Assembly: GCA_001800135.1 (NCBI GenBank)
Contig: MGUU01000025.1
Span: 124,001-188,000 of the forward strand
Direction of reading: 5' to 3'
DNA: 64,000 nucleotides
DNA from: Elusimicrobia bacterium RIFCSPLOWO2_02_FULL_39_32
GTDB taxonomy: Bacteria; Elusimicrobiota; Elusimicrobia; 2-02-FULL-39-32
Below, piece by piece: positions 4,185-34,704 of this stretch. Every line of letters begins with the position of its first letter. Position 1 is the stretch's first letter. The position numbers and the translations under genes are program-made. The notes under the pieces are model-generated. The model worked only from the letters and a program-made list of their open reading frames with translations, was not told where the DNA came from and made no database searches.

Positions 4185-4278
4185 AAATATTCTTAAAAAT
4201 AATATAAAAGTTAAAATTTAATAGTGTCATTAGACTAAAATTTTTATTAGAACCCGCCTTTTATAAAAAAGTTAAACT

Positions 4279-9160: not shown

Positions 9161-9882
9161 TATGGTATCTCCTTTTTACTATCAAAACTAATAATATCCT
9201 TAAGAGATTTAATTATTGATTCTTTATCAACGTCCATTTCTTGTTGGAATGATTCCAATTTTAATTTTATCTTTTCATCTGTCGTTGATTTAGTTAATAA
9301 ATCTGTGACTTTTAGTTCTATATTTTCAAACTTAGATATTATACGAGATAAGTTTATAAGCCTGTATTGAATATCTCTATTCCCAGCACCATATTTTATT
9401 CCAGGATCATGATCAGACAATTTTTCCGAAAATTCCGCCCATAAGTGTTGCAAAACAGTTCGAATTTGTATTTCAATTAATTTGTCAAGAATCCTGACAA
9501 TTACATGGACTGCGCGATAACCATGACTGGGATTAACCCGCCGATCTACAATAGATATATCATCAAAAGCTCTAGATATCAAGGTGATAGCATGTTCTTG
9601 AGCTGCAATATTTTCTACAACTATTCTACCTCCTGCAATATCTTGCATTTGGCTTAACCGAATACTTTCTCGATGCAGTTTTTCTATTATAGAGCTTGTA
9701 GATTTAGCAGGTCTTCCTGTTGGTTCCAGCTGTAATTTTTCACGTATAGTCTGAACTACTGTTTCATATACTTGACCAAAAGATCGTCTATAATCATCGA
9801 GAGTTCTTAAGTCAGAATCTCCAATGGTGCCTTTTCTTAATTGATCACCAAGGTGATCAATCCGTGTTTTACTAAGTTTCAT
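9160..9882 (-). CDS. RelA/SpoT-domain small alarmone synthetase (toxSAS-like)
   Basis: A 240-residue single-domain (p)ppGpp-synthetase fold protein with no HD hydrolase or C-terminal regulatory domains. Synthetase motifs are present: RPAKSTSS (57-64) for the ATP-binding loop, DIAGGRIVV (81-89), GYRAVH (121-126) and the catalytic Glu in EIQIRT (137-142), followed by HLWAEFSEKL. Proteins of this size make (p)ppGpp or ppApp, or pyrophosphorylate tRNA when they act as toxins. The coupled small downstream gene favours a toxin-antitoxin or phage-defence unit over housekeeping stringent response. A strong promoter lies upstream. Confidence 0.88.
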   Translation of the reverse strand: MKLSKTRIDHLGDQLRKGTIGDSDLRTLDDYRRSFGQVYETVVQTIREKLQLEPTGRPAKSTSSIIEKLHRESIRLSQMQDIAGGRIVVENIAAQEHAITLISRAFDDISIVDRRVNPSHGYRAVHVIVRILDKLIEIQIRTVLQHLWAEFSEKLSDHDPGIKYGAGNRDIQYRLINLSRIISKFENIELKVTDLLTKSTTDEKIKLKLESFQQEMDVDKESIIKSLKDIISFDSKKEIP

Positions 9883-9993: not shown

Positions 9994-12900
9994 TTACGCC
10001 TGCTCGGCGATAAGGGCGATGGCGTGCAGAGTTTTTTCAAAATTTTCGTCCCCAACACGCATTACAGGAAGGGAATTGAACAGCTCATCAATAAAATGAA
10101 TCACAGCTTTGCCCAAGATCCCTAACCCTTTCAACTTAGAGAGATCGCCCGCTAACTTTATAGGAAGGATTAAACTAAAGTGATCAAAATATTCTATGTT
10201 CTCCCAATGAAACAGTTTTTTATCCAAAACAGCCATGTTTAGACCATGAGGACCAAAAGCCTCCTCTACATTTAAAAAGCTGATGGATATCTGCTTACCA
10301 GCCTTCTTCCTTATCTCTGCTTCCTTATCCAAAGAAAGTGGTTCTTTTAAAATAAATAAAACAGAAAGTTTCTCCCCTTCCAGCAGTTTTTTCGCTGCTA
10401 TTTTGTATTTCTTCAAAGCTTTGGATAGATACTTAACTGGATTAGCAGGATCTACCACGCTAATTTGAAGCGTATGGCTGTTAATCTCGCTTTCTCTTAA
10501 AGCCTCCTCCAAAGGTTTTGTACTAAAACCATTGAGTACCACCTGCGCAGCTAGATTGTACGCTTGATCTTCAGATAACCTCTCCTTGAACCGAGCCATA
10601 AACTCCTTTGCCAGCGCTGCTTTAAATTCATCTTCATTGAGACCATGAATCGTTTGCAGCACTAAGTTATTCTGTACAAACGGATTACTGATATTCTCAA
10701 TTCCTCTTCTCAAATCTTCATTAAGAATTTTTTTCAATCCTTTTAATAACTTGGAACGATTTATCTCCTTTCCTTCATAGCGATCCGCTATTGCGCTCGC
10801 AATCACCTTTGCTGCCTGCTCTGCTTGAGTTTTGTCTGCAAGTGTCTCTGATTCTTTGGGAGAAGAGGGATGCTTCACATTTTTTCCAAACAAAGTTTTC
10901 CAATCATATGCGACATGGATAGCTGCCGCGGCAAAAGCTGATGCAACTATAAAGATAGGATCAGCGTGAAAATAGTTCATGATAGGAATAAAAAGATATG
11001 GGGTGAAGACAAGGAACTGCTTGGAGAAATTCTTGCGGAATGTTTTGACGAACTGCTTCCAGAACTGCGAAACTGTTGGGGGAGACCTATTCTGGTTCAA
11101 TTCAACAATTGTTTCTAAAACAATATGCAAAGCAGTAAATCCAATCAAGAAAATTCCCATGCTGATTGCATCCAAAATGGTGACGAGTTTAATCAATACA
11201 AAAATTTCTGGCAGCAATCCTGAAATCCCAATCCATTTAGCTTGCTCATGGCTCCATCCAAACACCGCCCGCACAAACCAATAGATACTGGAGTTGGGTA
11301 AGGAGTCACCGTAATTCTTTACAAAGGGAACTACCTCAAGTACCCGAACTCCAGCATTGAAAGACAAATCTTCATATGCAATTACTTCTGCCTTGTCAAC
11401 TACAATGTCGCCAAAATAATCGTCTTGCTGATATTTAGCAATAATTTTTCTTAAATCGCGAAGCTCGTCTTCTGAGAAAGCTTGAGTGAAATAAGCGGCA
11501 GTTATATGCGGGGGCCGAGGTTGCGGAAGGTCCCAGGACTTACGACGATCGAGGATAGGGTCTCCTGCCACAGGGGAATCAATTTCACTGCCTTGATTCA
11601 TCTCCCATGACTTGTAACGCTCAAGGATGGGATCTGATGCTCCCGCTTTCAAACGGGGTCGCAGTTCCCAGAATATTCCAATCTCCGGGTTCCAATTTAC
11701 TCTGCCAACTTGCATCTGAGTCACAGGAGTTTCAATTTGGTGCGCTCGCCTACGAACAGTTGCAAAAGGTTCTGCTTCAGGATCAATATCCTCTTTCCTG
11801 TTGTGCATGGCTAATTCTTTCTTTGTTTGGAGTTCCCTATTATCCCATTGCTGTTCTAGTCCTTGAGTGGTGAAATGAAGTTTATCCGCGTCCACAAAAT
11901 AGAGCTTGTTCCCAAACCTTTGCTTTAACTCATCTTGAAACGCAGCCATACGCTCTCGAGTTTTGGACTCTGGTAAAAAATAAACTTCTGTAATCCCAAA
12001 AACGCCATTTGCACTGCGCTCATCAAAACTCTTAAGGTCTCCTTCCAAAGTTAAAAATGTTCTAGATCGTTGTAAATTTTCCTCTGAAATATGGGTAACA
12101 CCTTTAACTGATTGACGAATAGTATCGTAAAAGGATTTGTATGAATCTACAGGTTGTCCTAAGTCAGAAGAGGGAATATTTACATTTTCTTTATTATTGC
12201 TTAAAAATATTGGTACCACTTTTGCAACTTTTGTCTCTGGACTATAAGTATCCACAAACAATTTGAATTGGGTTACTTCAGGCAGAGGTCCGAGTGACAT
12301 TAATATTAATTCTTTAACACTATCCTTTGTTACTGCAACTGGCAGTGAAATAAACCCGCCACTTTCATCCATTGGTTTTGCAAGATTAGAACCAAAAACG
12401 CAGGAAGCAGCAAACCGATATTGTTTTCCTAAAGGCATATCTAAACGTTGATCTGAAGATAAAACAACTAGTTCACGAACATTTTGATCCTCATAGAGAT
12501 CTACGATCTTCTGAGCGATTTCATCAATATTTGTTGAATCAAGAATGAACTTTTCATGAATCTCTACAGATTCTTCCAGAGAAGTTGTAATTGGAATCCC
12601 ATCCGCTGGTTCTATCTGATCTGCCAAAGAAATATTATCAGACTCTGTTAACCTTGCTTCCGATCTATCAAGCGATTCATTAAGCCGATCTAAATCTTCA
12701 TTAATCCCTCCAATTTTTTCTGAAATAATTTGAAAAAGTGCCTGCTTTAATTTATTGGAACTATGCAAACGATATAATAAACCAAACCCTACAATCCCAG
12801 CCCCAATACCTGCCACAGCCCATGCCCATGATGGAAGAGAATTCAAAATTGGAATATTCTGTTGCAAGCGATATAACACGACTGCCAACACAGCTACAAT

Positions 12901-15900
12901 TGCAGCAATAAGTCCATATTCCGTCATCGCTTGTCCATCTTCATTTCTAAAAAGATTATCAATCCCTCTTTGACGCGCTACGCCATCCAGACCATAGCTT
13001 TTAATGGTCTCTCCTTGGCCATAAGCGTCTGAAGTGTGCAGTAACTCTAATTCATTCACATGCATTCTTCCAAAAATTCTATTTCTATTTTGCTGAAGCC
13101 ATCTTGCCAATTCCTCTTTCTCATTTTCTGTTAAAGGTTGAAACGGGGTAAAGAGCGTGATGGTAATCCGAGGTCTAGCATTAGGATTCATCCTGCGCAA
13201 TAAATAAAAGGGAGAATCGCTCCCATCTTTTTTGGGAATCGGGAAAACTTGAGCCATGATCCGGCCGCTTGTTTTATCCATAGTCAATCCCTCAACCCAT
13301 AGATCAAATGCGCTCAAATCCGCTAACAGATTCTTTTCAAAATCATTCATTTTCTCTTCAATAGTATCCTTTGGCACCATCTCTTTTCGAGGTCCCTCTA
13401 AAAGCAATGCAGTAAAATGAATCCCAGGAGAAGGCGTGGCATAAAATTTTTTTGCAAAGGGCAATCCTGAAAACCCTTCTTGAATGCTCACTAGATTTTG
13501 TAATAATGGACTTCCATGTTCTGGACGAACGATCAATGCTAAAGAATAGTGCAGAGTTGGATTCCCATCTTTGTCCACGCAGCGATCTCTAACACTGGTT
13601 CCCCAATTCTCTGGTTGAGGGGTGGACAAAGAAGCTTCATCATAGGGAAAATTTTTAGCATCCTCAAAATAAGGATCATATAATTCTCTCTTAAGCTTCT
13701 CCACAAATTTTCTTTCAGTCCGAAACATTCCGATATAATGACCAGCAAAATTCGTGAGGAAATGGATTGCAAGGGATTGTAAAGAGAAGGGATCAAGACC
13801 AAAAGCAAAACTTAAAATTGATATGATTCCAGCTGCATGCATGTTTGAAGGAGGGGGAGCCCTAGGAGAATTTTGAGTTTTGAAAAAAGCGTACTCTATT
13901 ACATTGACAAACTTCCACCCCAAATAATCCAAAATATGAATCCCAAGGAAAAGTCCCCATAGACCAGCATTCACTGAAACAAAATCTAAACCTAAAGCAT
14001 GAAGGATTGTTGGCATGAATGGTTTTACAAAATTCTGCAAAAGCCAGTTCTCTAAAACAAATACAATCCACAGATCATAAATGTTTGAAATGCGGGGCAT
14101 CCGCTCCTGAGGCAACAGCTTCTTTAAAATAGCCATCAAAGGAGCTTTAATAAGAAAAATAATTCCGCCAGGGTTAGAGGCAAGAGGTATAATTCTATTG
14201 ATATCTGAAACAATCTCCATTGAATGTAAACGTAAGATGTCAGACAAATTACTTCGAAATTCCGGAGTATCTAAAGATGAATCTTGGGCAATCAGGTGCG
14301 CTAAATCCTTTACAGCCTCCATGACCAAGGAAATATCCGGAAAGCGCATAAACCAAAAGTAGATTTGGATGCGCTCTTTGTGGCTCTTTAATTTTTTTGT
14401 GTCCAGTAGAATGGAGATAAGTTGAGCCGGGTCAAAAGGAAATGAGGCTTGACGACATCTTTCTACTAAATCATTAAATGTTATCTCTACTGACTCAGAG
14501 CTTGATGATCCGTCTGATTTTCCTCTCCCTGAATTATCTTGATCAGAGACAGCGGATCCATCTGCATTTAAAGCCTGCGAATTAGCTTGATCAGCGACCG
14601 CCAGTTGAGCCTGCGGATCAGATTGTGTATCACCTTCTCCTGAACCATTTTTAAACCGGTCAATTCTTTCTGCTACTTCAGTTTCACTGAGTCCTGCCAT
14701 GCCTCCATAAATAGAATAAACATCTTTCTTAAGTTTCTCCAAAACATCCTGAAAGCTTTCTTCAGCCAGTCTCTTATAATTAGAGAAGCCCTCCTCAAAA
14801 CTTGGACCTGTTTCGTCTTCAAAATCTTCTGTTAAATCTTCTAATAACTGAAGATGGTTAGTCCAATAATCAAATACTTTTTCTCTAACAATCAGGAACA
14901 GGGATTGGGTAGAGTCCATTTGAGCAATAGCCTCTTTCTGGTATTCAGCAACTAACTCTGGAAAAATTTCATAAATCCTGCGAACATTAAAATAATCTCC
15001 AACCATCTTAAAAAACCTGTTCATATGATTATCTTGAACAGAATAGATTCGGTTTCTAGAAACTCTCCATTGGTAGTGGATAATCTCTGCTGCTTTTTGA
15101 GTCTCAATCGCCATTTCACGTCTTGTCTCTTGGGGACGATGCGTCAATGTCCCTAAAACAACTGCTAAGGGTCCCAGATAACGCCTAAACCCCTCATCTT
15201 GCAAAGAGATAATAAACTGTGAACTTCCAGGCTGGCCTTGTCTTCCTGCTCGTCCTCTTAACTGATCATCCACTCGCCTTGCATCAAACCTCTGGGTTCC
15301 AATAACATGCAATCCGCCTAGCTCCACAACACCGGGTCCTAATAGAATGTCCGTACCTCTTCCAGCTAAATTGGTTGCAACAGTAACAACACCTTTGTAT
15401 CCAGCTCTTTGGATAATCGTTTCTTCAGGCTGGTTTTGAGATCCATTGAGTAGTTGAGCTTCAATTCCAGATTCCCTTAATTTCTTGTGCAGTTCTTCAG
15501 ATTCTCGTATGGTCATAACTCCCACAAGTACAGGTCTCCCCTGTTTGTGATATAACTCCACTTGTTCAACCACTTTATCCCATTTCTCTTGTAAAGTTCT
15601 AGCCACATAGTCTTCCATATCTATTCGTAAAGAAGGTTTGTGGTTAGGAAGTCTCAATGACTTTAACCCATAAACTTCCAGCAGTTCCTTCTCATCCGTA
15701 TCTGATCCAATGGTTCCTGTAATAGCAAAAATCTTCTTGTAAAACTTAAAATAAAAAGGATGCGTAATAGAAGCTCCTGGCTTAAATTCTTCTCTTGGGG
15801 ATATCCCTTCTTTAATCTGAACGAATTGGTGCAATCCATGGTTCCAAACTGATCCCTCTCTTTTTCGTCCTGTGGCTTTATCCATGATGATGATATCCTC

Positions 15901-18900
15901 TTCCTCAACTTCTTGAGGACCAAAATATGTCATCTTAATTTTTTTAACCTTTTCTACCACATAATCCACATCTCTTTGAATCCGCTCGGCTTGCAGAGCA
16001 GACCTTGCATATCTTTTTAACTGAACTTGGGAGAACTGAGCTTTTCCTCTCCCTTGATTTTTAACAAGCTGATCTATAAAATCTCGATACTTATCCTCAC
16101 CTATAGAAGTAAGCTCTGTTCCATGAAAATCAGTCCCTTGGGTTAAACCTTTGAAAAATTGATAGATTGGCTGATAGTGCCAGGTTGGCATGGCTCTGCC
16201 AAAACCGCTGATCAGATGCGGATTCACAGCTTCATCCAAAAATAGGCTGTCAACCTCATCTACAATCGCAGTGGCGAACTCCCGTTTTACTGTGACTCCG
16301 TTACTTTTTTTTGCTCGAATTGGGGACTGATCCACCTGCTCATAAAGATAAAGGAACTCAAAATTTGAGTTTGTTCCATAAACAATATCTGCTGAGAATG
16401 TGTCGGAATTAGATTCTTTTAGCGATTTTCTCGATGAATGATCTTGATCCTTAATATGATCTACTGTAAGCCCTAAAAAATCATACAAGCGTTTAAATTT
16501 AATAGCATCTCTTTTTGCTAAATAGCTATTTACTGTAAAAATATCTACTGGCTTTCCAGAAAGCGAGGACATCCCCGCGGTTAAAGCAATAATGAGAGAT
16601 TTGCCTTCACCTGTTTTAACTTGCTCTGCCAAACCTCTTGGATTCATTTCACTATTTTCAAAGAAAAGCAATGTAGATGCGAGCTGAACATTATAAGCGC
16701 GCATTCCATAAAGCCTTTTAGAAATTTCTCTTAATATCGCCAAATATTCAAGCTTTACTTCATCAAAAGAAAGAGCTTGGTTTTCAACTAAAGATCTAAT
16801 TTCAAGGGCTCGGGCTTTAAGTTCTCTTTGAGTTTTTGTAACAAGCTCTTGTTCAAAAGCTAACACAACCTGCAATTTTTCCTGAAGCTCTGCTTTTTGA
16901 CTTTTGTCCAACCCATCAATTCGGCTTATTGTTTTCTCTAAAGGAATTTCAGGAAACTTCTCTGCTTCGTAATCCAGACGTCTTTGTAACGCGGATTCCA
17001 AAGCTTCCGCGATCCCATCTGTTCTAAGATTTTCTAAAGCGCGAATAATTTCATCCCGCCCTTCTTCATAACTCATGGTCTCCGCAAAGTAGGTTAAACT
17101 TTCTATGAAAGGGTTAATGAGTTCTTGATCCGTACCTTCCAAAGCGATCTCCAAACTTTCTAGAAGTGACTCCACCTCTGCCATGCTCATCCTTTGAACA
17201 AGAATGTTTAAATCCCTTACAAAAAGAATAGGATCAATTTCTTCGTTCTCTTTCTTTAACATGCGTATCCCTATCCTGCACAAACGATCCTTTAAATCAT
17301 TAAAAGAGTCCTGAACCTTTTTTTGTTCATCGTACTCTTTAGGAAATAATGGATTTAAAGCGTTCGCTGTATAAATCCAGAGAGATTCAATCACTCGGAA
17401 CGGAACAGCTTGCCCAGAATCTGTTTTTAGGAACTTTGAGGCAAAGATCATTAAATTAAGGTGTGGTTCCTTTTTTTCCCAGTCAATAGAAAGTTCATTG
17501 CGATACCAATCCTGGTGGGGATGAATAGTTCGTATGGTTGGGACAAAATGAGGGTCTTGAGATATTCTTTGCTCAATCTCCTTTTCCATTTCTAAAAAAT
17601 TTTCAATCCCTTTAAAAAAGAGCGCATCCATCCAGCGATATCCACGGCTATATAGAGCCTCCATATCTTCTGGAACATTTTCTTTTAGCTTATAGCCGAT
17701 CACACCATGATAAGATACGGTTCTTAAATCTTTATTTGGGAACGAACTATGCGTTAAAATAAGCTCTACCAAAGAAAGAGGAAGCTGATTTGCGCGTTCT
17801 ATATCTGTAAAATCCACATCTCTTTCCTTTATCTTTTCCAGCAAGGATTTGATTCTATCCAAATTAGTAATCGCGCTAGTATCTTCAAAAATGATTCTCA
17901 ATAAGACTGTGAGATTTTTTGGGTCCGTAGAGGATAAAATCTCCTGAAACACAGTTAAACAGAGCTCGCCTTGAGTTCCAGATTTGTCCAAAAATTTATT
18001 CAATATGCTTACAACCTCGCCTACTTTTCCAAGAGGCCGAACATTCCGATTGAGTAAATCAAAAATTGTATTCAGTTTTTCTAATGAACCTAAGATTATT
18101 TTTGAATCCAAAGAATATTTAAGAACTATCCTATACAGGATATTCATTAGCTGATCAGTCTCATTGAATCCATAGTGTTCCCCTTTATCTTCTAAATTAA
18201 CTTTCCTTCCCAACCGATTGAGCTGAACAATAATTTGAATTAATTCTTCTGCTTTAAATTTTTCAAACAGGTCTCGCATAAAGTGCATTTGATTACGCCC
18301 GTACCGCCTGACAAATGTGGCCAGGAGTCCTGTTACAAAACGATCCTCCTTATAAGAATCCAGAGCTCCAAATATTTTTGACATGTCCAATTGGGCTCCC
18401 GGAGAGTAATCATAAACCAGGCTTGCAATGTATAACAAATTTTCTCCCGCGAGATTGGCTCTAAATTCTGGATCTATCTCATCTCTCTTGATTGTCTCCG
18501 CTCCGACTTTTATCTCTTTTCTATCTTCCAGATTCTCCAGAAATTCAGACAATTTTCCTGGAAAAGTTAAAAAGCTTTTATTTGGGAACCTGTCCCTAAA
18601 ATCTACCCATTCTCCTACTCCAATCATATAGGTGTCCTCTGGCCCTCCAATCATTCTATCTGAACCCTGCGGGCGATAGCCTAATTTCCTAAAACGAGCA
18701 TATCTTTCCAAAAAGAGTGCTAAATAATAGGCAGCTTCTGTTTCATCCCCTTTTATATGAAACGGTCCAAAACCCTTTTCTTGTTCACCCTTTAATCTTC
18801 CTTGAGAAACTACAGGCAGATAATTTAAGATAAATATCGTCTTGGCATAAAAATCAAATCCTTCTAATATCGCTTGAATGAATCTTTCTGCTGAGCCACC

Positions 18901-21900
18901 TTCTCTTATAAAACTCAAAAAATTCAATCTAAAACTATGGTGCACAGCGAGCTCAAAAAGAATCTGTTCGTTAAAAGGATCTGCAAGAATACGTTCATAC
19001 AATCCGCGAGTTAAATAGATAAAACCATCTGGATCATGAAAGAATGGAACTAATTTTTCTCCTGACAAAAATCCATATTCTGGTATCTCTACAACTTTAA
19101 ATCCGCGTAAACAGGGTTTAAAATAAATCCTCTTTTCATAATCTTTCTTAAACAGTCCTGCCACAAAATCATTCGCTTCATTTACTAAATCCCTTTTCTC
19201 TAAAAGCTCATTAGTTTTATTCACTAAATCCTGATTCTCTAAGAGCGTGGCATTTTTTGTGAAAGTCTCTAAAAATGGTTGGGTGTCTATCATTTTGTCC
19301 CTAGAAATTGGAACTTGCAATGGTTCATTTTTCCCTGCCATTGTAAATGCGATCGGTAAACCAGCTCCTTTTTCTACGGTAAATAATCCTTTAGATCTAA
19401 GGAGTAGAAATTGGAAGAGATCAGTCATATATTTTTCACTATATGTTTTTCTATTAGATGGAAGATTGAGCCACACATCCACAAAATAAGGAAGAACAAA
19501 TACAACTGCCCAAAGTGCATAAATGATTGCAGGTGAAAAAATAGAATTAAAAGGAAAAAAATTTGTAAGAGCTAAAAGCGCAAGAACAGGCAATACAGGC
19601 AAAAAACCACCTGCATAAAAAAGAGCGAGACGCCATCTTCTAACTTCGTATTCCCATTCATTGTGAGGATGAAAGTACCCCTTCACCCCAATGCCTGCAA
19701 TAATAGTGGTTCGATATTTAATTGGGAAAAAGGGTAGAGCGATGAATCCTGCCATTAAACCTGTGATCATGTGCCCAAGTTCATGGTTAATATTTCCAGG
19801 CAAAAGCCACCATGAACGAGGTTTCTCCCACTCAAATCCTTTATATCCTGCAAGCGAATTGGCAGAATTTCCATACCAACGTTTTATAATAGCCAGACGC
19901 TTTCTAATTTTTCTTACATAGTCCTCTACCTCAGATTGCGGTAGATGCGTTAGAATTAAAAGGGAAGCTTCATAAGTATCCATTGCATCCTTACTTTTTC
20001 CATCTTCCAGCGTTCTTTCAGCCTCAAGCTCAAATTGAGCTAAAATCCTTGCATAGGATTCTATTTCTTCGAAATTATGCTGATCCAAAAACTTAGCGGC
20101 TTCAAATGGTTTTCCTATATAAAGCAAAGATGAAACTATCAAGGATAGGTATAAATCTTCTGGCTTTAATGTCCACGGGGCTGTTTTCAACCGCTCATAA
20201 GCAATATCAAATTCTCTTGATAAGATTTTAAATACATTCGAGCGCCGATCTAAATCTTTATTAGTCAGTCCAGCAGCTAACACCATCAATCGCTGCATGA
20301 TCTCCTGAAAGCTTTTCAATTGAGATTCAAAAGATTTTTGAGATTGTATGAGATTAGAGGCAAACTTCCCGTGATTCCTAAAAGAATCCTGAAGCCATAA
20401 AATAAGATGAGGAAGTTGACCCTCGCCTAAAAGCTTAAGAATATAAAGTTGGGCATCTCTTTGGTCAGAGGAAAGTTTAGAGGGATCATTTTGCTCAGCA
20501 GAACGAATCAAAAGTTCATATATTTCTGAAGGCACATCTAACTTCAACAGCCTCCGATGAATCTCTAGACCAATTTTATAGGGAGCTGGTCTAACATCTT
20601 CCACATCTCCTTCAACTTTTCGCGCCAGAGAATATAGTTCAGGACGGCCCGCATCAGAAAAAACTTTAGTCCAATAGGCTTCAGTCACGATTTCGTTTGG
20701 AATATGTGCCTTGGCTTGCAGTCTTCTTAAATGATCAGTAATAATTTTTTTTGCCTGTTCCTCAGCTGAAGATAAAACTTCACCTCTAAATCCAAAAATT
20801 GAAATTTTTATAGGAAGAGATACGGGGTTAATTGCAAGACTTTTCCTACGAATGTTTCTATAGAACCATAAGACGCCTAACACACCTACGCCTCCTAACA
20901 ATACCGTCCCAAATACCCATTGAGGCACTGAATTCAAAATTGGAACATATTGTTTTAGGAAGAAAACAAGGATAGTTAAACCAGCTAGACCCGCGATCAT
21001 CATTCCATATGCCACCATCCCCTGTGCCGATTGATCTAACCATAACTCCTTTCCTTTACTCTGCCAGTCTCTTGATTCTTCTTTAAGAGCTTTTACAATC
21101 TGGATAAAAATATTCTGCTTTACCTGCTGCGGTGTAGTATGACGAATGGAGCCATCTTTTTTATCAAGCTCGAGATTAAATGTCACATCCCCACTGGTTG
21201 TAGCTGCAATCCCATCCCCAATGTCCTTGGCATAGACCCTCATATCTTTCCTAACTGTTTTAACTAATCCATGAAATTTAAGGTTCTCTTCTTCATCGGG
21301 AATCTCTACTTCAGAATCACTTGCTTCCTCCACACCAATAATATGGGTTGCAACAATAGGGGGCAAAGAGGAAGGGTAGGCTTCAGACGGCAAGAACAGC
21401 TTTTCTCCATCAAACAATTTCTGAAGAGGTGTTTTTTCTTGAGTAAATACGCTTAAATAAGCAGAGCCATTGGCTATATCTACCTTCGCAATCTTGGGAG
21501 TATATGTGATCACCGTTACATTAGATTTGTTAAGCAGCGCTTCAATCCCTTCTGAATGAAATCCTCCAGTTACAAGCACTGCAACATGGGACTTGGAGCT
21601 CAATACTCGATTCTCACTCGACATAGAGGTAATAGAGGAAGTAGGGAAGATGGGGGAGGTAGGGGAAGTGGAGGAAGTTGAAGATTTAGAGGATAAAAGA
21701 TTTAATAGATTATTCGCTATTTTCTCATCACGAATAAAAGATTCTTGATAGAAATCCTCAAATGATCTTAAATCAAGAAGAAAGTTAGGAAGTTGAAATA
21801 TTGGTGAATTTAGAGTTGCGATTCTCTTATACTCTTTCCATTCTTCTCTGGTTAAGGAGCAGCTCACCAGCTTCTCGGTAAGATAGAGAGCTTTCGATTG

Positions 21901-23283
21901 GGCCACAATCTCCTTTTCTTCCTTTGACTTGGTTAGAGACTGATACGCCTTCTCTTCCAAAACCTTTACTTCCTCAAAAAGTTTATCCGCATTGATCTCA
22001 TCAGAGAGTAAAACATATTTCAGATAAGCATCCATTGCTGGAAACTTTTTAAAGTCAACCCCGCTTTGCTCGCAAAGTTTCTGTAGATAAAGATAAAAAT
22101 CAGCGTGCTTTATATTCCCTAGCCGATAAACCATGCTCACATTCAGCAACTCTTGCATTTGAGCTTTGGAAAGAGAGTGGATCAATTTTTCCAAGAGTAC
22201 TGCTCGTTCTTTCTCTACCTCTTTGAAATTAAGGGAAGATTCAATCTCCAAAGCTTTAAGGAACTTCATAATTTGAGAATGATTCCTAGTGACTCGATAG
22301 GCAATAGAAGAAACCGAAGCGACTATTTTTATATATTCTCCCAAGCCTATTTTCTGATTTCGGTATAATTGCACCTTCTGATCAAACGCTTTTAACTTCT
22401 GGCTAAAGCTCTCAGATTTTTGCTCTTCCAGTTTTATCTTAAAAGAATGGAGCTGCTCTTTATATTGGGCTATCTTAGGATAAGATCGTTTATAAGCTTC
22501 TACATTGGCATCATAATGTTTGCGGTCATCCACCCCTACAAAGGATGGAATCTCTTTCTTGCCTGACTCAAGAGTAGTTAAGATGCCTGTCCTCTGCCTG
22601 TCCTCTGCCTGTCCCGATCTGAGTCGAGGAATAGAATTAAGAGGAATGGTTCTGGGACTTGTGAAAGCTGTGTGAATCGCCCCAGAGATATTGTTTTCTT
22701 TTAAAAGATAATCCGCCACTTTCTTAACCGCGTCTTGATTTGGGAATTCGCGAAAACTACTAAGATCAATCAGTCCAAAAGCTCCTTCCAGCGCAACCAA
22801 GTCTGGCTTGCCATGGGCGATGAAGTGCTGAATTGATTTCCCAATGTTCCTTTGAGCATCTTTATTTAAATGAGCATCTTGAATATAAATAACGATCGGG
22901 TCCCCAGTTTTCCAGGAAGAAGGAATCACAACTTTTTTAAGAGTTGCATAACTTAATGGGTTGGATGTGACCCATTGTGGTAAAGGAAACTTAAGACTTG
23001 GAATATGGGCTTTCTGATTTAAAAGAGGCGCAAGTGAAGAGTTCGAACTATCAAGAAGATTTTTAGTAGAAGCGGTTGGGAAAATATTTTGTTCAATGGA
23101 GGGAAGTCGAGCTAAAAGGGTTTCATCTTTTTGTAACTCTTTTGCCGCGATTCTACGATCCTGCCATAAATTGGCCTGTACAAAAGGCGCGCTGATCGTA
23201 GTAAACAAAAAACTAACCGCAAGGGTTTCCGCAGTCAGCTGAAGCCAACTCCTATTTCTTTTTGTAATCCAAAAGCGAATCAT
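9994..23283 (-). CDS. Giant exported multidomain protein 1 with embedded SecA motor
   Basis: An uninterrupted 4429-codon gene. Domains in order: signal sequence (about 15-37, cleavage near VQA); TIKI/ChaN/TraB-like module (about 125-630, with IQDAH at 135-139 and GGFHSEG at 573-579); a degenerate pilin-like hairpin (752-808); a helical region; an M50-like membrane protease region with HELGH at 1167-1171; a long helical region; a full SecA core with KTGEGKS near 2224, DEVDS near 2341, ATNLAGRGTD and GRAGRQGQPG near 2678, and scaffold motif YWTNHL near 2808; a Ser-rich linker near 2920; a 2H-phosphoesterase-like region (H3289); a Flp-pilin-like segment cut site G3450/Q3451; a second 2H-like region (H3803, H3926); a membrane region; and a C-terminal domain weakly like that of giant 2. 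An AGGGG site precedes the ATG. Each domain is seen by motif; the joint function is unknown. Confidence 0.9.
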   Translation of the reverse strand: MIRFWITKRNRSWLQLTAETLAVSFLFTTISAPFVQANLWQDRRIAAKELQKDETLLARLPSIEQNIFPTASTKNLLDSSNSSLAPLLNQKAHIPSLKFPLPQWVTSNPLSYATLKKVVIPSSWKTGDPIVIYIQDAHLNKDAQRNIGKSIQHFIAHGKPDLVALEGAFGLIDLSSFREFPNQDAVKKVADYLLKENNISGAIHTAFTSPRTIPLNSIPRLRSGQAEDRQRTGILTTLESGKKEIPSFVGVDDRKHYDANVEAYKRSYPKIAQYKEQLHSFKIKLEEQKSESFSQKLKAFDQKVQLYRNQKIGLGEYIKIVASVSSIAYRVTRNHSQIMKFLKALEIESSLNFKEVEKERAVLLEKLIHSLSKAQMQELLNVSMVYRLGNIKHADFYLYLQKLCEQSGVDFKKFPAMDAYLKYVLLSDEINADKLFEEVKVLEEKAYQSLTKSKEEKEIVAQSKALYLTEKLVSCSLTREEWKEYKRIATLNSPIFQLPNFLLDLRSFEDFYQESFIRDEKIANNLLNLLSSKSSTSSTSPTSPIFPTSSITSMSSENRVLSSKSHVAVLVTGGFHSEGIEALLNKSNVTVITYTPKIAKVDIANGSAYLSVFTQEKTPLQKLFDGEKLFLPSEAYPSSLPPIVATHIIGVEEASDSEVEIPDEEENLKFHGLVKTVRKDMRVYAKDIGDGIAATTSGDVTFNLELDKKDGSIRHTTPQQVKQNIFIQIVKALKEESRDWQSKGKELWLDQSAQGMVAYGMMIAGLAGLTILVFFLKQYVPILNSVPQWVFGTVLLGGVGVLGVLWFYRNIRRKSLAINPVSLPIKISIFGFRGEVLSSAEEQAKKIITDHLRRLQAKAHIPNEIVTEAYWTKVFSDAGRPELYSLARKVEGDVEDVRPAPYKIGLEIHRRLLKLDVPSEIYELLIRSAEQNDPSKLSSDQRDAQLYILKLLGEGQLPHLILWLQDSFRNHGKFASNLIQSQKSFESQLKSFQEIMQRLMVLAAGLTNKDLDRRSNVFKILSREFDIAYERLKTAPWTLKPEDLYLSLIVSSLLYIGKPFEAAKFLDQHNFEEIESYARILAQFELEAERTLEDGKSKDAMDTYEASLLILTHLPQSEVEDYVRKIRKRLAIIKRWYGNSANSLAGYKGFEWEKPRSWWLLPGNINHELGHMITGLMAGFIALPFFPIKYRTTIIAGIGVKGYFHPHNEWEYEVRRWRLALFYAGGFLPVLPVLALLALTNFFPFNSIFSPAIIYALWAVVFVLPYFVDVWLNLPSNRKTYSEKYMTDLFQFLLLRSKGLFTVEKGAGLPIAFTMAGKNEPLQVPISRDKMIDTQPFLETFTKNATLLENQDLVNKTNELLEKRDLVNEANDFVAGLFKKDYEKRIYFKPCLRGFKVVEIPEYGFLSGEKLVPFFHDPDGFIYLTRGLYERILADPFNEQILFELAVHHSFRLNFLSFIREGGSAERFIQAILEGFDFYAKTIFILNYLPVVSQGRLKGEQEKGFGPFHIKGDETEAAYYLALFLERYARFRKLGYRPQGSDRMIGGPEDTYMIGVGEWVDFRDRFPNKSFLTFPGKLSEFLENLEDRKEIKVGAETIKRDEIDPEFRANLAGENLLYIASLVYDYSPGAQLDMSKIFGALDSYKEDRFVTGLLATFVRRYGRNQMHFMRDLFEKFKAEELIQIIVQLNRLGRKVNLEDKGEHYGFNETDQLMNILYRIVLKYSLDSKIILGSLEKLNTIFDLLNRNVRPLGKVGEVVSILNKFLDKSGTQGELCLTVFQEILSSTDPKNLTVLLRIIFEDTSAITNLDRIKSLLEKIKERDVDFTDIERANQLPLSLVELILTHSSFPNKDLRTVSYHGVIGYKLKENVPEDMEALYSRGYRWMDALFFKGIENFLEMEKEIEQRISQDPHFVPTIRTIHPHQDWYRNELSIDWEKKEPHLNLMIFASKFLKTDSGQAVPFRVIESLWIYTANALNPLFPKEYDEQKKVQDSFNDLKDRLCRIGIRMLKKENEEIDPILFVRDLNILVQRMSMAEVESLLESLEIALEGTDQELINPFIESLTYFAETMSYEEGRDEIIRALENLRTDGIAEALESALQRRLDYEAEKFPEIPLEKTISRIDGLDKSQKAELQEKLQVVLAFEQELVTKTQRELKARALEIRSLVENQALSFDEVKLEYLAILREISKRLYGMRAYNVQLASTLLFFENSEMNPRGLAEQVKTGEGKSLIIALTAGMSSLSGKPVDIFTVNSYLAKRDAIKFKRLYDFLGLTVDHIKDQDHSSRKSLKESNSDTFSADIVYGTNSNFEFLYLYEQVDQSPIRAKKSNGVTVKREFATAIVDEVDSLFLDEAVNPHLISGFGRAMPTWHYQPIYQFFKGLTQGTDFHGTELTSIGEDKYRDFIDQLVKNQGRGKAQFSQVQLKRYARSALQAERIQRDVDYVVEKVKKIKMTYFGPQEVEEEDIIIMDKATGRKREGSVWNHGLHQFVQIKEGISPREEFKPGASITHPFYFKFYKKIFAITGTIGSDTDEKELLEVYGLKSLRLPNHKPSLRIDMEDYVARTLQEKWDKVVEQVELYHKQGRPVLVGVMTIRESEELHKKLRESGIEAQLLNGSQNQPEETIIQRAGYKGVVTVATNLAGRGTDILLGPGVVELGGLHVIGTQRFDARRVDDQLRGRAGRQGQPGSSQFIISLQDEGFRRYLGPLAVVLGTLTHRPQETRREMAIETQKAAEIIHYQWRVSRNRIYSVQDNHMNRFFKMVGDYFNVRRIYEIFPELVAEYQKEAIAQMDSTQSLFLIVREKVFDYWTNHLQLLEDLTEDFEDETGPSFEEGFSNYKRLAEESFQDVLEKLKKDVYSIYGGMAGLSETEVAERIDRFKNGSGEGDTQSDPQAQLAVADQANSQALNADGSAVSDQDNSGRGKSDGSSSSESVEITFNDLVERCRQASFPFDPAQLISILLDTKKLKSHKERIQIYFWFMRFPDISLVMEAVKDLAHLIAQDSSLDTPEFRSNLSDILRLHSMEIVSDINRIIPLASNPGGIIFLIKAPLMAILKKLLPQERMPRISNIYDLWIVFVLENWLLQNFVKPFMPTILHALGLDFVSVNAGLWGLFLGIHILDYLGWKFVNVIEYAFFKTQNSPRAPPPSNMHAAGIISILSFAFGLDPFSLQSLAIHFLTNFAGHYIGMFRTERKFVEKLKRELYDPYFEDAKNFPYDEASLSTPQPENWGTSVRDRCVDKDGNPTLHYSLALIVRPEHGSPLLQNLVSIQEGFSGLPFAKKFYATPSPGIHFTALLLEGPRKEMVPKDTIEEKMNDFEKNLLADLSAFDLWVEGLTMDKTSGRIMAQVFPIPKKDGSDSPFYLLRRMNPNARPRITITLFTPFQPLTENEKEELARWLQQNRNRIFGRMHVNELELLHTSDAYGQGETIKSYGLDGVARQRGIDNLFRNEDGQAMTEYGLIAAIVAVLAVVLYRLQQNIPILNSLPSWAWAVAGIGAGIVGFGLLYRLHSSNKLKQALFQIISEKIGGINEDLDRLNESLDRSEARLTESDNISLADQIEPADGIPITTSLEESVEIHEKFILDSTNIDEIAQKIVDLYEDQNVRELVVLSSDQRLDMPLGKQYRFAASCVFGSNLAKPMDESGGFISLPVAVTKDSVKELILMSLGPLPEVTQFKLFVDTYSPETKVAKVVPIFLSNNKENVNIPSSDLGQPVDSYKSFYDTIRQSVKGVTHISEENLQRSRTFLTLEGDLKSFDERSANGVFGITEVYFLPESKTRERMAAFQDELKQRFGNKLYFVDADKLHFTTQGLEQQWDNRELQTKKELAMHNRKEDIDPEAEPFATVRRRAHQIETPVTQMQVGRVNWNPEIGIFWELRPRLKAGASDPILERYKSWEMNQGSEIDSPVAGDPILDRRKSWDLPQPRPPHITAAYFTQAFSEDELRDLRKIIAKYQQDDYFGDIVVDKAEVIAYEDLSFNAGVRVLEVVPFVKNYGDSLPNSSIYWFVRAVFGWSHEQAKWIGISGLLPEIFVLIKLVTILDAISMGIFLIGFTALHIVLETIVELNQNRSPPTVSQFWKQFVKTFRKNFSKQFLVFTPYLFIPIMNYFHADPIFIVASAFAAAAIHVAYDWKTLFGKNVKHPSSPKESETLADKTQAEQAAKVIASAIADRYEGKEINRSKLLKGLKKILNEDLRRGIENISNPFVQNNLVLQTIHGLNEDEFKAALAKEFMARFKERLSEDQAYNLAAQVVLNGFSTKPLEEALRESEINSHTLQISVVDPANPVKYLSKALKKYKIAAKKLLEGEKLSVLFILKEPLSLDKEAEIRKKAGKQISISFLNVEEAFGPHGLNMAVLDKKLFHWENIEYFDHFSLILPIKLAGDLSKLKGLGILGKAVIHFIDELFNSLPVMRVGDENFEKTLHAIALIAEQA
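21626..21680 (+). repeat. Purine-rich G-tract within giant gene 1
   Basis: The plus strand is almost pure purine with runs GGG, GGGGG and GGGG plus several GG pairs. It encodes, on the minus strand, a Ser/Thr/Pro-rich low-complexity linker (near residues 531-556) inside the TIKI-like module. It could form a G-quadruplex on the non-coding strand. Confidence 0.55.
22585..22615 (+). repeat. Tandem 11-bp repeat inserted in giant gene 1
   Basis: GCCTGTCCTCT occurs at 22585-22595 and 22596-22606, with a partial third copy to 22615. It encodes an arginine/glutamine-rich insert (RSGQAEDRQRTG) at about residues 222-233 that has no counterpart at the matching place in giant 2. It resembles a small dispersed repeat that has landed in frame. 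Confidence 0.7.
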
Positions 23284-23870: not shown

Positions 23871-26800
23871 TTATGCTTGGAATTTGATGAGGTTAATGCG
23901 TTTAAGATCTTCGCTCACGCCTTTTTCAATCTTCTGAACCAGACCGCCCGCTAAGAACACCAAGAGTTTAACTACTCCCTCTTCTAAACCGTTTAAGTCC
24001 CAGTGATCTTTATTCAAAGCAAAAATAGTCATTTTCTGAATTGTTTTAGGCAGGCTATTTTTCAAAGCAAGCGCATTGATCCTTCCTTTTAGTTTCCCTT
24101 TTTTATTTATTAAGCCATTTTCTTCTGTGACAGATTTAATAATAATTTCATTGAGTTTTAATGCGTTCTTTAATATCTCAACTTCCTCTGTTTTAAGCTC
24201 GGCATTATGACCAAGTTTTTCTAATGTGGCTTCAATCTCAGAATCTCGGACATCCAATCCCAAAACAGTAATCACAACTGGTTTGTCTTTTCCAAACTTT
24301 TCTGGGTCAGATTTCCTTTGTTCAGTAATAGCTCTTAATTTATCAAAAGCAGAACTCTCTTGAGCGCTGAATTTATCGCCTGTAACCATATTAGCAGAAA
24401 CTTCCAGAACATTTGCTCTGCCCCATTCTAATTCTAATGGTTTATCAGCAAACTCTAATCTGGAAAGTTCTCCCATACGCTGGTTATAAGATTCAAAAGC
24501 ATTTCTTAAAGACTCCTCTACTTCCGCTTTCCTTTCCATATCTTCTAAATAATATTCACCAAAAATAATTGAAATGGCAAGCTCAATATCAGCTAATTGC
24601 ATCTGACTAATCTGAGCGTTTTGATTTAAACCTAACTGGGTTTGAACCTTCATTTGAGCCACTAAAGATATTTCTCCCCATTGCTTGCTTAAGGTATGGC
24701 CTGCATGATATTCAGCTAGCATGCGGAATATTTCATTCACTCTATTTTGTTCATTAAACACTTCTCTTTGGCCAGTCAGCAATTTTCCGGATATTTTACT
24801 CTCTAATTCTGCAACTCTTTTTTCTTGCTTATTTCTAGCGGATTTTACAACAGAGCTCCTAAAAAATTCTTGCAGAGCGTCTCGAATAGCGCTAGATTCT
24901 TTTCTATGCTGAAGCGCTCTCTGGCGCAATGATTCTAGACTGATTTCAAACTCTTCTACTGGAATGGGTTTGGCGCGACCACCCAACAACAATTCACCCA
25001 AAATCTTTATTCGCTCCAATTTTCCCTTTGGAGTCAGATTTGGTTGAGCTGTGGGGACAGGGGCAGTTTTAAAAACAGGAACAGCGCCCAGAGCTTGCTT
25101 AGGAAGCTCAACAAAACGATAGTAAAGTCCAATGCCAACAGAGAGTAAAGTTGTCAAAGGCTCAGTAACATTCGCATGTAATATCTGATTGAGCGGCCAT
25201 AAGGTTTGTTGAATCAACTGGCCAATGGATTGTTGGTACATAAACCAAACAAATAAAATAATTGAGATCATAACTGCGGAAAGAAGAATTTTTCCAAGAG
25301 AAAGAGTGCGTTGCGCCTTTATACCATCAGCTAATTGATCTCTGCTAATTTTTCCAGATACTAACTGCGCAATAAAACCAACTAAACCCACAAGGCTCAA
25401 ATATCCCATCATCTGTTTAAACATTTCAAAATTCATAAACAGTGTTGCGGACATATTTGCAGTTGCAATGTTTGGCAGGGAAAGTCCGGATCCTACTAGA
25501 GAAACCATTGGAGACAGCATAGGGGCTAACGGGGATAAACTCTCAATGTTTGACATAGGAATATTTATTCCTATGGGATTCAACAAATTCATAACCACAA
25601 CTAAAACCACAGCAAACAGCGCGACAATAACCCCATACTCAACACTGGACTGTCCCCTTTGATCCAACATCGTCTCTAAAGTCTTTATAACCCCATCCAA
25701 AGAATCTGTACGCCTACTTAACAGTTTAAACACAATTTCACTCACTAAATCCAGAAAGTTGCTGGGATGTGATTCTAATAATTCGATTAAGAGTCCATAG
25801 ATACGATTGACATAATCCTCATATCTTTCAAACGGCTCATTTTCTCTGACAAATTTCATTTGATCCCTAAACCAACTAAATTTAAGCGCAATTTTTTCTT
25901 CAAATAAAAATGCACGATGTAACAGCTCACTTCTATTTACAAATTCTCCAAAACTATTAAACCCAAGGGTGTTTATTCTTACAACTAATTCCTCAGCATC
26001 CATAAACGGATTTATTTCTTCCAAACGCCGCAGTGAATCACGAAATTCTAAATAATCTTCTGTTCTTGCGTCCCGATCACGCATCATTTGGCGGTTCCTT
26101 TCTATGACTAACCTCTCTACTTCTTCTAATTTACTAAAATCTCTTTGAGCTGACTCTGGTCTAATGGCTTTAAATTTTGAGTGGGCCGGCGTCCTTGGTT
26201 CTAATGGCTTTAAATCTTGAGTCATCGCACGCGCCATGCCTCCCTCGGCGCCTGTTTCCAAATAGGGTTGGGGCGCTTCTTCGCGGGGTTTGAGCGATTC
26301 AGCAATAAAAACTCTATTGAGCAAAGAATCTTCAGCCGCATTTAGTTCGCTCTTAATCCGATCAAAATATTCTGGATTTAATCTTAATCTCGCAGCCATT
26401 AATTTAAGATATGCGGGTATAAAAATAGCAACTAAACCAGCCACACGTTCCAATGAACTACTAAATTTTTCTATCATCTCTGGCGTTACGCTCCTTAAGT
26501 CAAATGGTTTTTCTCCCGTCGGCCATACCCGATCAGCAGCGCTGACCGCTCTTGTCAAATTGTAAACGCCGCCACCGTCCATCATATGGTAGATAACATA
26601 AAGCAACTTTTTTTCAGAGTCTGTTAAATTTTGGAATTCAGGTGAGACATCAATAGAGATCGTCTCCAGATATTGCGCAAAATTTCTTATGCGCGTTAAT
26701 GCATTATTAAAGTGAATCTTATGTCTTATTCGAGAACCCACGCCCGCGAGCTTTGGAGCTGATTCTCTCATGCCATCCATATCATTTTTAAGTCCAGCAA

Positions 26801-29800
26801 TAAATTCCAATAGTTGTTGATATGCCGTACTGTTGAACTCTATCCCTCGAGCAGCGCTAAAACCATTCCATGAATAAAATTCATTCTCCCCTTTAGGCAC
26901 AGAAACCGCTACTAAAATCTTTTTCCCGTCCGGATAAAATGTTAAACCGTATCCCTTTTTTCTTAAAATCTCCAACTCCGCCGCGTAGGATTCCAGTCCA
27001 AGCCCTGTTCCACTTACTTCACCCGGCATGGAACCTTCAAACCCGCCTTCCTCTTTTATCGGCATCGTGAGGGGCGCGATGGCGAATTTATTGCTGAACA
27101 TTCTTACAAGAGGCGTCACTGCCAAATAAAGCTGTCTTAAAATGTCATTAAAAATATTCGAAATATCAGAAAAGAACCCCAATGGAGCGCTCACCCGCAT
27201 TTCACGTTTTGTTGCTTCTGCTTGTTCTTTCAAAATTTCCTCAATTAATTCTGCAAGCTCGTCTGATCCTTGATTTAAGTCAAAAACTTGGAATAAATTT
27301 TTATTTTCCTTCACTCCAATTTTCTCCGCCTTAACCGCAAGTTTTGCTGTTTCCTCCGTTGGATTTGCAATAGGTTCACCCGTAACAAGGCTTGCAATCA
27401 CATCCGCGGCTCTACCGCTTCCGCGAATCACAATCATCCGCCTGCCCTGCCGAATATTCTCCTTTACTTCATCGAGGGTAATTCCTCCTCCATTTGCAAC
27501 AATCGCAACCGAAGGTCTAAATCCAATCAAACCCATTCGGCCAAACAGTTCATACATCGCTTCAGTTTCAGAGCCCCAATGGCCCCAACTAGGCTCCCAT
27601 CCATATTTTTTCTGTTCTTCCAACCATGGGTCATTTTTTACAGTCATGATGTACGAGTGGTTAGGATCCACAGGTGTTTTTCCTTCCTCACCCGCAAAGC
27701 TAACATCAGCTCCCGGGGCAACACCAACCAACACAAAATTATTTCTTTTGGCCATCTGTTTGCCTGCCGCTTCCATAATGCCTGCTTGTGTACCCCCATC
27801 GAGCACGGCAATTTTTCTGCTTTTTGCCACTTGGGATAATGCATCAAACAATCGAATTAATTTTTCTTTGTCATCCTCGCTCATTTTCGATGCGCCGCCG
27901 CTTAAAACAATAAATTCATTTGCCTGTTTATGGATATTGCCAAACAAATCTTGCACATTAATATCCCGCATTACTCCATCCGCATTAATTTCTCTAGCGA
28001 CCCTCATCCCCGGCGTATTTTGATTGATAAATTTATGAGCAGCAACCGCAAATCGAACCCCATACATTCCCATTACAATTGCGCCCGGCAAAATCATCGT
28101 AGTTAGCACGGTCACATTCCCAGCTAATCCGGCTAACCATGGAACCAGAATCGTCACAACAAGAAGGGGTGAATGGATCATCATTGCAACTATAGATTTA
28201 CTAGCCCATGTGCTCCAATCTACAACAGCTACTTGCCATACACCATTTTTAAATTGATATTCCATGGGCCGATATTTCCAAAAATGCCATCTCGGTTGCC
28301 CTTTAGGAATTCCGCCGTGCATCATGGCAAAAACAATATTGAAGGGAACGTATAAGGCGGGAACAAGAAAAAGGGAGTTGCGAACAAGGTCGGGAATGGA
28401 AGGATCAACTCCAAACAGGGTCATGGCTAAGCCGCCCAAAAAAACAGCGAAGAGATATAAGGTTCCAAAATTCGCTGTTTCTTTATCTGGAGCCCCCTCT
28501 GCGATCGCCCGATTGATCTCCGCCTGACTCTTCCCTTTTCCCACCAGCCACGGCATGGTGAGAGGAACCGCCCCCAATTGTCGCCTGCCCGTTTCCTTTT
28601 CCGAAGGAAGAATTTCTTGCGATGAACGAACTTGCTCTTTCAGTCCAGTTTCTTTAACATCCGCTTCCCCAAGAGTTAGCAATTCATTTGCAGAATTCGT
28701 TGTTCCAATTGCGGGATGCAATAATCCTTGCACCATATGCGCGATTTGATAGCTGCTCAGGTTTAAATGAGATCGCACCATGGAATCAACCAACTTTAAA
28801 GTGGATTCAAAATCATTTCTTCTTCTGATACCTCGGATAAATTTCATGATATCAAACGCTTTTCCATCCGCATTCAATCTCTCTAATTTATCCAACACTT
28901 CAAGCCGCTTACGCCTGATGATTTCTTCGGTTTTAGATATTCGATAATCCCTCTCCCAAAGAGCCGGTTCATTACTACTAACCATCTCGCTGATTAATCC
29001 ATACCAGGATGGAAGGTACGCGGAAAGGTTAAGAAAATCGGACTTTTCTTGAGCTCTTTTTAAATAGGTTTCAAATTTTTCCCTAATTTGTTCGTTAGAA
29101 AAAGGGGCCAACTCTAGATGAGGAAGCGCCATCCACATCGCGGCAGATAGAATATCGTCCCGGTGTATATTTATTCTTTTTCTCTTATACTCCGCAACCA
29201 TTTCTTCTATAAGCTTTTCTATCTCGCCATTTTGAATCTCACCATTCTTAATTTTATCCGCTAAATTCTCGATGATTTTCAATTCCACTTCAAATTCTTT
29301 ACTCCCGATCTTTTTATATCGACGGAATAAATCTGGATGAAACATGCCATACCTATTTACAAAATCCTTTATTCCATCTTGGTCTTTCTTGGAAAACGAA
29401 TAATCTATTGTCCCATCTAATAATAGATGGGGTATTCCAGACATTAACTGCGCAACAAGCGTTTCATTCTGTTCCATGTACGAATCGATGAAATCGAGGA
29501 CCTTTTTTCTTGTTTCAGCCAAACGATCGGAATCAAAATTATGGTCTCGAAAGAAAACCATTTGATCTGCAACCTCCGAACTGTAAACATAATCAAGAGT
29601 GTCAAGCGCACGAACAAAATTTAACGGCGCCGCTCGGGCAATTCTAATTAATTCGGGCCAACTATTATCGAATCGATCAGGATCTCCTCTATCATTTTTA
29701 GAATCCAACAAAAGCCCAAAGAACCGATCAGCATCCTCGCCCAACAGCGTTCCAATATCAGCGATATTTTTCCAATTCTTATTAAACCAGAATGTTCCAA

Positions 29801-34628: not shown

Positions 34629-34655
34629 AAATTTTGAGATGGATGGATAGGAAAT

Positions 34656-34690
34656 AAAAAAACCCTTACCTCTTAAGATTATGGTAAGGG
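34656..34690 (-). terminator. Intrinsic terminator of the riboswitch
   Basis: On the minus strand CCCTTACC (34690-34683 region) and GGTAAGGG form an 8-bp stem with a 12-base loop, followed directly by seven T residues (34662-34656). It lies between the aptamer and the ATG at 34628, as expected for a transcriptional riboswitch platform. Confidence 0.85.
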
Positions 34691-34704
34691 CAAAATAGAA
34701 CAAA

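Follow-up and report, generated by a model that had tools for sequence, protein, structure and literature searches.

Embedded SecA-type motor in giant 1

The stretch analyzed here (the window) comprises 64,000 nucleotides of contig MGUU01000025.1 (positions 124,001 to 188,000 of the forward strand, assembly GCA_001800135.1) of Elusimicrobia bacterium RIFCSPLOWO2_02_FULL_39_32. On its minus strand, it harbors a single unbroken open reading frame (ORF) at 9994..23283 that encodes a protein of 4429 amino acids (aa), here named giant 1 (residue r starts at position 23283-3(r-1) and takes in the two bases below). The protein begins with a putative signal sequence and contains a SecA-family motor at residues 2127 to 2866 (window 14686-16905, minus strand). 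A preliminary description of the window had reported a complete SecA motor and quoted its landmarks. All quoted motifs were found in order within giant 1, where the quoted range of 14800-16760 corresponds to residues 2175 to 2828: GMRAYNVQ at 2193, the Walker A motif KTGEGKS at 2223-2229, VDEVDS at 2341, ITGTIG at 2521, NLAGRGTDI at 2638, QLRGRAGRQG at 2674, and DYWTNHLQ at 2805. The ATPase core, with all motifs intact, consists of nucleotide-binding domain 1 (NBD1), the preprotein cross-linking domain (PPXD), and NBD2 (residues 2127 to 2705; 15169..16905, minus strand). It is followed by the SecA scaffold helix and two finger helices (residues 2706 to 2866; 14686..15168, minus strand), with the wing missing and EDETGPSFEEGF at the fingertip.

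In hmmscan searches of Pfam, the motor gave above-cut-off matches to SecA_DEAD (residues 2127 to 2531, E = 1.5e-60, 205 bits), P-loop_SecA (from residue 2550, E = 6.7e-50, 170 bits), and the preprotein cross-linking domain SecA_PP_bind (E = 1.4e-7, 32.6 bits). NCBIfam SecA models matched with E values down to 2.8e-130, yet every one stayed under its equivalog cut-off. Apart from one SecA fragment chimera, a phmmer search of PDB sequences returned only SecA and SecA2 chains (best E value, ~1.6e-93; range, ~1e-93 to 1e-60). The AlphaFold2 model of the motor had a mean predicted local distance difference test (pLDDT) score of 79.6, and the first 36 rows of a Foldseek search with this model were all SecA structures, including the SecY-engaged SecA 5eul (template modeling [TM] score, 0.74). 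The SecA fold is thus kept in the prediction; since the input alignment included 56 SecAs and such an alignment favors a SecA-fold outcome, the model supports rather than proves it. By profile matches and predicted fold, the embedded region is a SecA superfamily motor.

Missing parts of the motor

The ATP engine of the motor is complete, with whole nucleotide motifs; the parts that are missing are the fingertip, the C-terminal zinc tail, and the larger part of the helical wing. The preliminary description was correct in naming a SecA motor and overstated its completeness. The spacing from motif VI to the tryptophan of the second scaffold helix is 128 residues in the motor, compared to 189 to 224 (median, 198) in 50 SecAs, so the helical wing is largely lost. 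Both finger helices are predicted in the AlphaFold2 model, and the conserved fingertip GIxLRAYGQxDP (LRxYGQxDP) is replaced by EDFEDETGPSFEEGF. The C-terminal zinc tail is not present. Among SecA columns with at least 95% conservation, the motor retains 40 of 66 in NBD1, 24 of 37 in the cross-linking domain, 47 of 63 in NBD2, and 4 of 12 in the scaffold; the domain borders for this count are approximate and based on Bacillus subtilis SecA.

As these parts are missing, the motor fails all equivalog cut-offs, both those of canonical SecA (TIGR00963, 409.7 versus a cut-off of 800; PRK12904, 422.1 versus 814) and those of the SecA2 models (398.8 versus 1085, 378.1 versus 930, 300.7 versus 725, and 274.2 versus 1100). 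The helical wing and fingertip of SecA are implicated in SecY and substrate coupling. With these and the C-terminal tail lost, the motor would be no substitute for the cell's own SecA.

Distribution, origin, and selection

A separate canonical secA was found in the genome (903 aa, with zinc tail; E = 3.5e-132), and a single SecY is present in this genome as well as in a second species of the genus. In phylogenetic trees, the cell's own SecA clusters with the SecAs of the phylum, among which an NCBI-named Elusimicrobia SecA (L211) is nested, making Elusimicrobiota the more likely phylum than Omnitrophota; the embedded motor forms a very long outside branch and joins neither SecA2 nor the secondary SecA_DEAD proteins. 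A recent duplication of the cell's own SecA is ruled out by this position outside the phylum's SecAs. Because of long branches, the exact origin of the motor is unsure.

The motor's own tail occurs in only 2 of 341 genomes of the phylum, namely, that of the window and that of the second species, and strong giant-borne matches to the motor core lie, among the matches listed, in the same two genomes. The second species shows the same layout, with a 5253-aa ORF, a motor of 92% identity (synonymous divergence [dS] ~0.3), and flanking genes conserved by eye, which rules out an assembly or frame artefact. The Q motif, Walker A KTGEGKS, DEVD, TGT, motif V, and the motif VI arginines are retained in both species; hence, the degraded nucleotide sites in relatives that would speak against a motor are not seen. 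In a third genome of the family, ~800 residues upstream of the motor match at about 56 to 57% identity, and the contig ends where the motor starts. No relatives of the embedded motor were found in viral contigs. The listed plasmid and phage-collection matches are canonical SecA, SecA2, or secondary SecA, mostly at 31 to 38% identity, the phage-collection listing leaving out two records at 60 to 80% identity. A wide family-profile search for further embedded SecAs gave canonical SecAs among the matches listed.

The embedded motor is under purifying selection. Between the two species, the ratio of nonsynonymous to synonymous divergence (dN/dS) is 0.15 for the motor, 0.28 for the whole of giant 1, and 0.064 for the canonical SecA pair; the best-conserved stretch of giant 1 (residues 2201 to 2400, dN/dS = 0.09) surrounds the nucleotide motifs. 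The last ~400 residues (4000 to 4429, window 9997-11286) show a dS of >2, compared to 0.2 to 0.9 elsewhere, and this saturation suggests that the C terminus was probably swapped by recombination, perhaps between paralogs.

These values bear on the idea that the motor is a structural relic, i.e., that the giants collect fused genes and the SecA fold now serves only as a scaffold and no longer as a motor. Such a relic would fit the very long branch, the change of ~40% of the invariant NBD1 columns, and a family rich in insertions and swapped parts (the C terminus of giant 1 and the split iPGM of a paralog described below). However, the changes avoid the nucleotide motifs, exactly where conservation is highest, and we therefore regard a relic as quite improbable.

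Family of domain-absorbing giants

Matches to the first ~600 residues of giant 1 occur in 66 of the 341 phylum genomes and at 41 places in its own genome. From the latter, 20 further giant ORFs of 2015 to 13,472 aa (120,440 residues in total) were retrieved; including the two in the window, at least 22 giant ORFs occupy ~385 kb of 2.52 Mb, or about 15% of the genome. All 20 retrieved giants match the N terminus of giant 1, one over the signal sequence only and one weakly. Most of them share the signal pattern MI.FW..K.NRSWL..T......SFLFTT..APFA.A.LW.ERRKA, followed by a domain with invariant QDxH-, EG-, and GGxH-type positions. Giant 1 belongs to this family by its signal sequence (residues 1 to 38, MIRFWITKRNRSWLQLTAETLAVSFLFTTISAPFVQA^N; 23170..23283, minus strand) and its ~600-aa domain (residues 39 to 640; 21364..23169, minus strand), with IQDAH, EG, and GGFH at the invariant positions. 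The signal sequence noted in the preliminary description looks real and recurs in most paralogs, its cleavage site being putative. The N-terminal domain shows a weak likeness to Tiki/ChaN (weak Pfam matches in 3 of 16 members) and no PDB relative by profile search; AlphaFold models of two of its sequences (pLDDT, 45) were too poor for use.

Several paralogs carry enzymes of central metabolism. A 4094-aa giant (G000:C8, L125:7876-9678, minus strand) contains a diverged triosephosphate isomerase, which retains GHSE and YEP, and the C-domain of glyceraldehyde-3-phosphate dehydrogenase; a normal free triosephosphate isomerase is encoded elsewhere in the genome. In a signal-bearing giant of 6139 aa (G000:C16, L112:9089-12091, minus strand), we found fructose bisphosphatase, malate synthase, and isocitrate lyase. 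The latter has an intact KKCGH motif and aligns in four stretches with isocitrate lyases of known structure; no free isocitrate lyase was found in the genome, leaving the giant-borne copy only. Both the embedded isocitrate lyase and the triosephosphate isomerase are kept in the second species (dN/dS of the surrounding regions, 0.13 and 0.21, respectively). An 8021-aa giant (G000:C16:211605-213284; L248, L249) holds the only iPGM found, whose N-domain is split, with the halves in swapped order, in both species. A further paralog (L114:1097-16096, minus strand) contains a complete enzyme resembling phosphoenolpyruvate (PEP) synthase/PPDK. Other modules embedded across the giants are glutamate dehydrogenase, M23 peptidase, AceK, PP2C, ABC1 kinases, ARMT1, and M48, among others. 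The paralogs of giant 1 carry no SecA.

The SecA motor is thus one module of a domain-absorbing giant family and an example of a general habit. As many enzyme modules have been absorbed, a secretion-specific explanation is no longer the one to start from. For Elusimicrobiota and Omnitrophota, numerous giant ORFs have been reported that contain membrane segments and in which few domains are recognized (PMC11573180, PMC10066038); neither account mentions SecA, and the passages considered here do not describe embedded central-metabolism enzymes. We found no description of a giant family absorbing such enzymes in the openly accessible articles consulted, and a prior description elsewhere is possible. 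The absorbed core enzymes provide these "dark" giants of the Elusimicrobiota with testable activities, as catalytic motifs are kept in both enzymes checked (isocitrate lyase and triosephosphate isomerase), and for at least two enzymes (isocitrate lyase and iPGM) the giant-borne copy is the only one found. It is conceivable, if unlikely, that an additional set of core enzymes (those of the glyoxylate shunt and gluconeogenesis, AceK, and glutamate dehydrogenase) has been moved, together with the SecA motor, into a dedicated family of signal-bearing giant membrane proteins and that these form a surface- or membrane-bound working compartment with its own protein-moving motor.

Predicted topology and a proposed tethered motor

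In agreement with the preliminary description, the motor lies behind the signal sequence and between predicted membrane segments, which occur both before and after it. The part of giant 1 that connects the signal to the motor contains a hydrophobic pair at 757/789, within a Flp-pilin-like hairpin (residues 753 to 807; 20863..21027, minus strand), and three hydrophobic segments in a region with an HELGH motif (residues 1140 to 1300; 19384..19866, minus strand; M50-like by motif only), located at 1169-1188 (starting at HELGH), 1219-1241, and 1250-1272. A mainly helical conserved region with 85% identity in the second species (residues 1340 to 2126; 16906..19266, minus strand) leads to the motor, and a hydrophobic module common to other giants (residues 3035 to 3190; 13714..14181, minus strand) follows it. 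The second species lacks the 757/789 pair, its hairpin being truncated, and retains the three HELGH-region segments; the Flp pair 3452/3485 of giant 1 is likewise not present as membrane segments there. As both pairs are even in number, sidedness is the same in the two species.

Topology was predicted using our own simple semi-Markov model of hydrophobicity and the positive-inside rule, starting outside after the signal and applying three membrane-segment costs. The motor was placed inside with P = 0.99, 0.90, and 0.66 in giant 1 and P = 0.98, 0.86, and 0.68 in the second species; the last HELGH-region segment would leave it in the cytosol. Moreover, the protein of the second species has a J-domain with an intact HPD just after the motor. 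J-domains act with ATP-dependent DnaK, and this neighbor agrees with the prediction. The motor thus likely faces the cytosol according to the model.

Our tentative preference is that giant 1 is a membrane-anchored giant with a cytosolic, ATP-driven, tethered SecA-type protein-handling motor, a reading we hold with somewhat less than even confidence. The signal peptide would send the N-terminal part out, and an odd number of membrane segments would return the middle part to the cytosol, where the divergent motor, tethered to the membrane by giant 1 itself, might use ATP to take hold of polypeptide and either remodel it or thread it. The motor would then be a specialized protein-handling module recruited into the domain-absorbing family of at least 22 giants. 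Of this scheme, we infer the topology, the hydrolysis of ATP, and the polypeptide handled. In its favor are the SecA identity of the motor, its intact nucleotide motifs, its dN/dS below the protein average, the predicted inside position, the J-domain of the second species, the loss of the translocase-coupling parts, and the cytosolic type of the enzymes carried by paralogs. Other points weigh against it. Selection is weaker on the motor than on the cell's own SecA (0.15 versus 0.064), and the topology was derived from a simple model of our own and depends on the HELGH region, whose first segment is weak. In addition, the cytosolic placement disagrees with the ATP-using PEP-synthase-like enzyme of the paralog. 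No membrane segment separates this enzyme from its signal peptide, and it is predicted to lie outside; hence, either the outside is a possible location for ATP-using enzymes of this family or the signal fails to direct export.

The same enzyme would fit export of the whole giant, with the SecA-type ATPase and the metabolic enzymes working in another ATP-containing place, e.g., a partner cell. Conservation of the signal peptide across the giant family points in this direction, too, as do SecA-like domains among Amoebophilus effectors (PMC3482391) and the reading of giant proteins in lineages of the Planctomycetes-Verrucomicrobia-Chlamydiae (PVC) type as predation or attachment factors (PMC10066038; PMC12057145). 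We nevertheless consider delivery of this kind unlikely: membrane segments are predicted on both sides of the motor, no secretion gene was found among the scanned neighbors, the J-domain needs a matching DnaK, and the cargo is central metabolism and not toxins.

Comparison to known SecA systems and a possible role in translocation

The embedded motor shares with canonical SecA (TIGR00963/PF07517) NBD1, the cross-linking domain, NBD2, the scaffold helix, the two finger helices, and the ATPase motifs. It differs in that it is only ~36 to 40% identical, has largely lost the wing, lacks fingertip and zinc tail, is fused into a 4429-aa membrane protein, and misses the equivalog cut-off by half. Accessory SecA2 motors resemble it in being the second SecA of a genome, and a reduced wing is known in mycobacterial SecA2; unlike SecA2, it fails the SecA2 models, is not free-standing, comes with no second SecY, and is not joined to SecA2 in the tree.

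An extra SecA with a lost wing is also typical for the secondary SecA_DEAD proteins of PVC and other bacteria, which lack the wing-scaffold region and have M50 and HlyD partners (Kamneva 2015, PMC4452313). In contrast to these proteins, which are free and 650 to 675 aa long in the examples considered here, the motor of giant 1 keeps the scaffold and finger helices, and no HlyD or M50 gene was found with it. Comparison of the HELGH region to site-2 protease (S2P) proteins by hhalign gave a probability under 5%, which is not significant. A fused version of the secondary SecA/M50/HlyD system, attractive as it is, is not supported, as this M50 step failed and no partner genes were present among the scanned neighbors. 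On plasmids of Rhodobacterales and Mesorhizobium (L236:1-7752, L237:1-7710), secondary SecA_DEAD genes lie beside HlyD genes, a gene for a 715-aa HELGH protein (a site-2 protease in one), and genes for proteins of ~10 to 13 thousand residues, an arrangement that suggests a secretion route for giant proteins.

SecA-like domains are furthermore carried by giant actinobacterial toxins (PMC8195603) and by Amoebophilus effectors (PMC3482391), and in both, as in giant 1, a SecA-like ATPase resides inside a larger exported-type protein. Compared by description only, they differ from giant 1, which has no recognized toxin domains and other partners. SecA-like domains in large exported-type proteins therefore have precedents; giant 1 adds a case in which more of the motor is present, from a lineage whose huge proteins are known but uncharacterized (PMC11573180).

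The preliminary description had raised the possibility that giant 1 translocates itself or serves as a dedicated translocase. In such a scheme, the embedded SecA would dock on SecYEG or on the giant's membrane segments and drive export of later segments of giant 1 or of paralog giants. This would be in line with the predicted scaffold and finger helices, with the position of the motor after an HELGH membrane region, which recalls the loci of wing-less secondary SecA with M50-type and HlyD proteins (PMC4452313), with the ~10 to 13 thousand-residue proteins encoded next to such SecAs (L236, L237), and with the predicted role of the SecA-like domains of giant actinobacterial toxins in aiding secretion (PMC8195603). 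The proposal is so far unsupported, and we view it as doubtful. The helical wing and fingertip, to which a role in coupling to SecY and substrate is ascribed, are lost, which speaks against a simple self-translocase, and there is one SecY only. Furthermore, no HlyD or M50 neighbors occur among the scanned ORFs around giant 1, and the HELGH region has no significant similarity to S2P proteins. Giant size does not require the motor, since paralogs without SecA reach it as well. A SecA fused into a membrane-anchored, signal-bearing giant directly raises the question of whether such a motor can act in cis, on a substrate to which it is itself tethered.

Other features of giant 1 and its neighborhood

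The part of giant 1 downstream of the hydrophobic module contains a region weakly resembling 2H phosphoesterases (residues 3190 to 3440; 12964..13716, minus strand; PF08975, E = 0.04), a Flp/Fap-pilin-like segment with GQAMTEYG (residues 3444 to 3504; 12772..12954, minus strand), and a second 2H-like region recognized only by its motif HFTTQ...HITAA (residues 3706 to 4000; 11284..12168, minus strand). The C-terminal domain (residues 4161 to 4429; 9997..10803, minus strand) lies within the part with saturated dS.

Giant 2 (23871..34703, minus strand) is a paralog of 3610 aa with an N terminus as in giant 1. Its residues 2265 to 2447 form a SLOG (LSDAT_prok, TRPM-type) nucleotide-ligand domain (E = 1.3e-32) amid hydrophobic clusters. 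The Flp-pilin-like motifs GQAMTEYG of giant 1 (window 12913-12936) and GQSSVEYG of giant 2 (residues 3014 to 3044) resemble prepilin peptidase sites and could be candidate built-in processing points.

The scanned neighbors of giant 1 are housekeeping genes, with no HlyD, M50, or secretion gene among these ORFs. A gene for a small RelA/SpoT-type protein (window 9160-9882, minus strand) immediately follows giant 1 on the strand they share. DUF4143/AAA_14 ATPase genes adjoin giant 1 in both species (window 7284-8456, plus strand; L033:773-1984, plus strand, and 19293-20000, minus strand) and differ in position between them, as if they were mobile.

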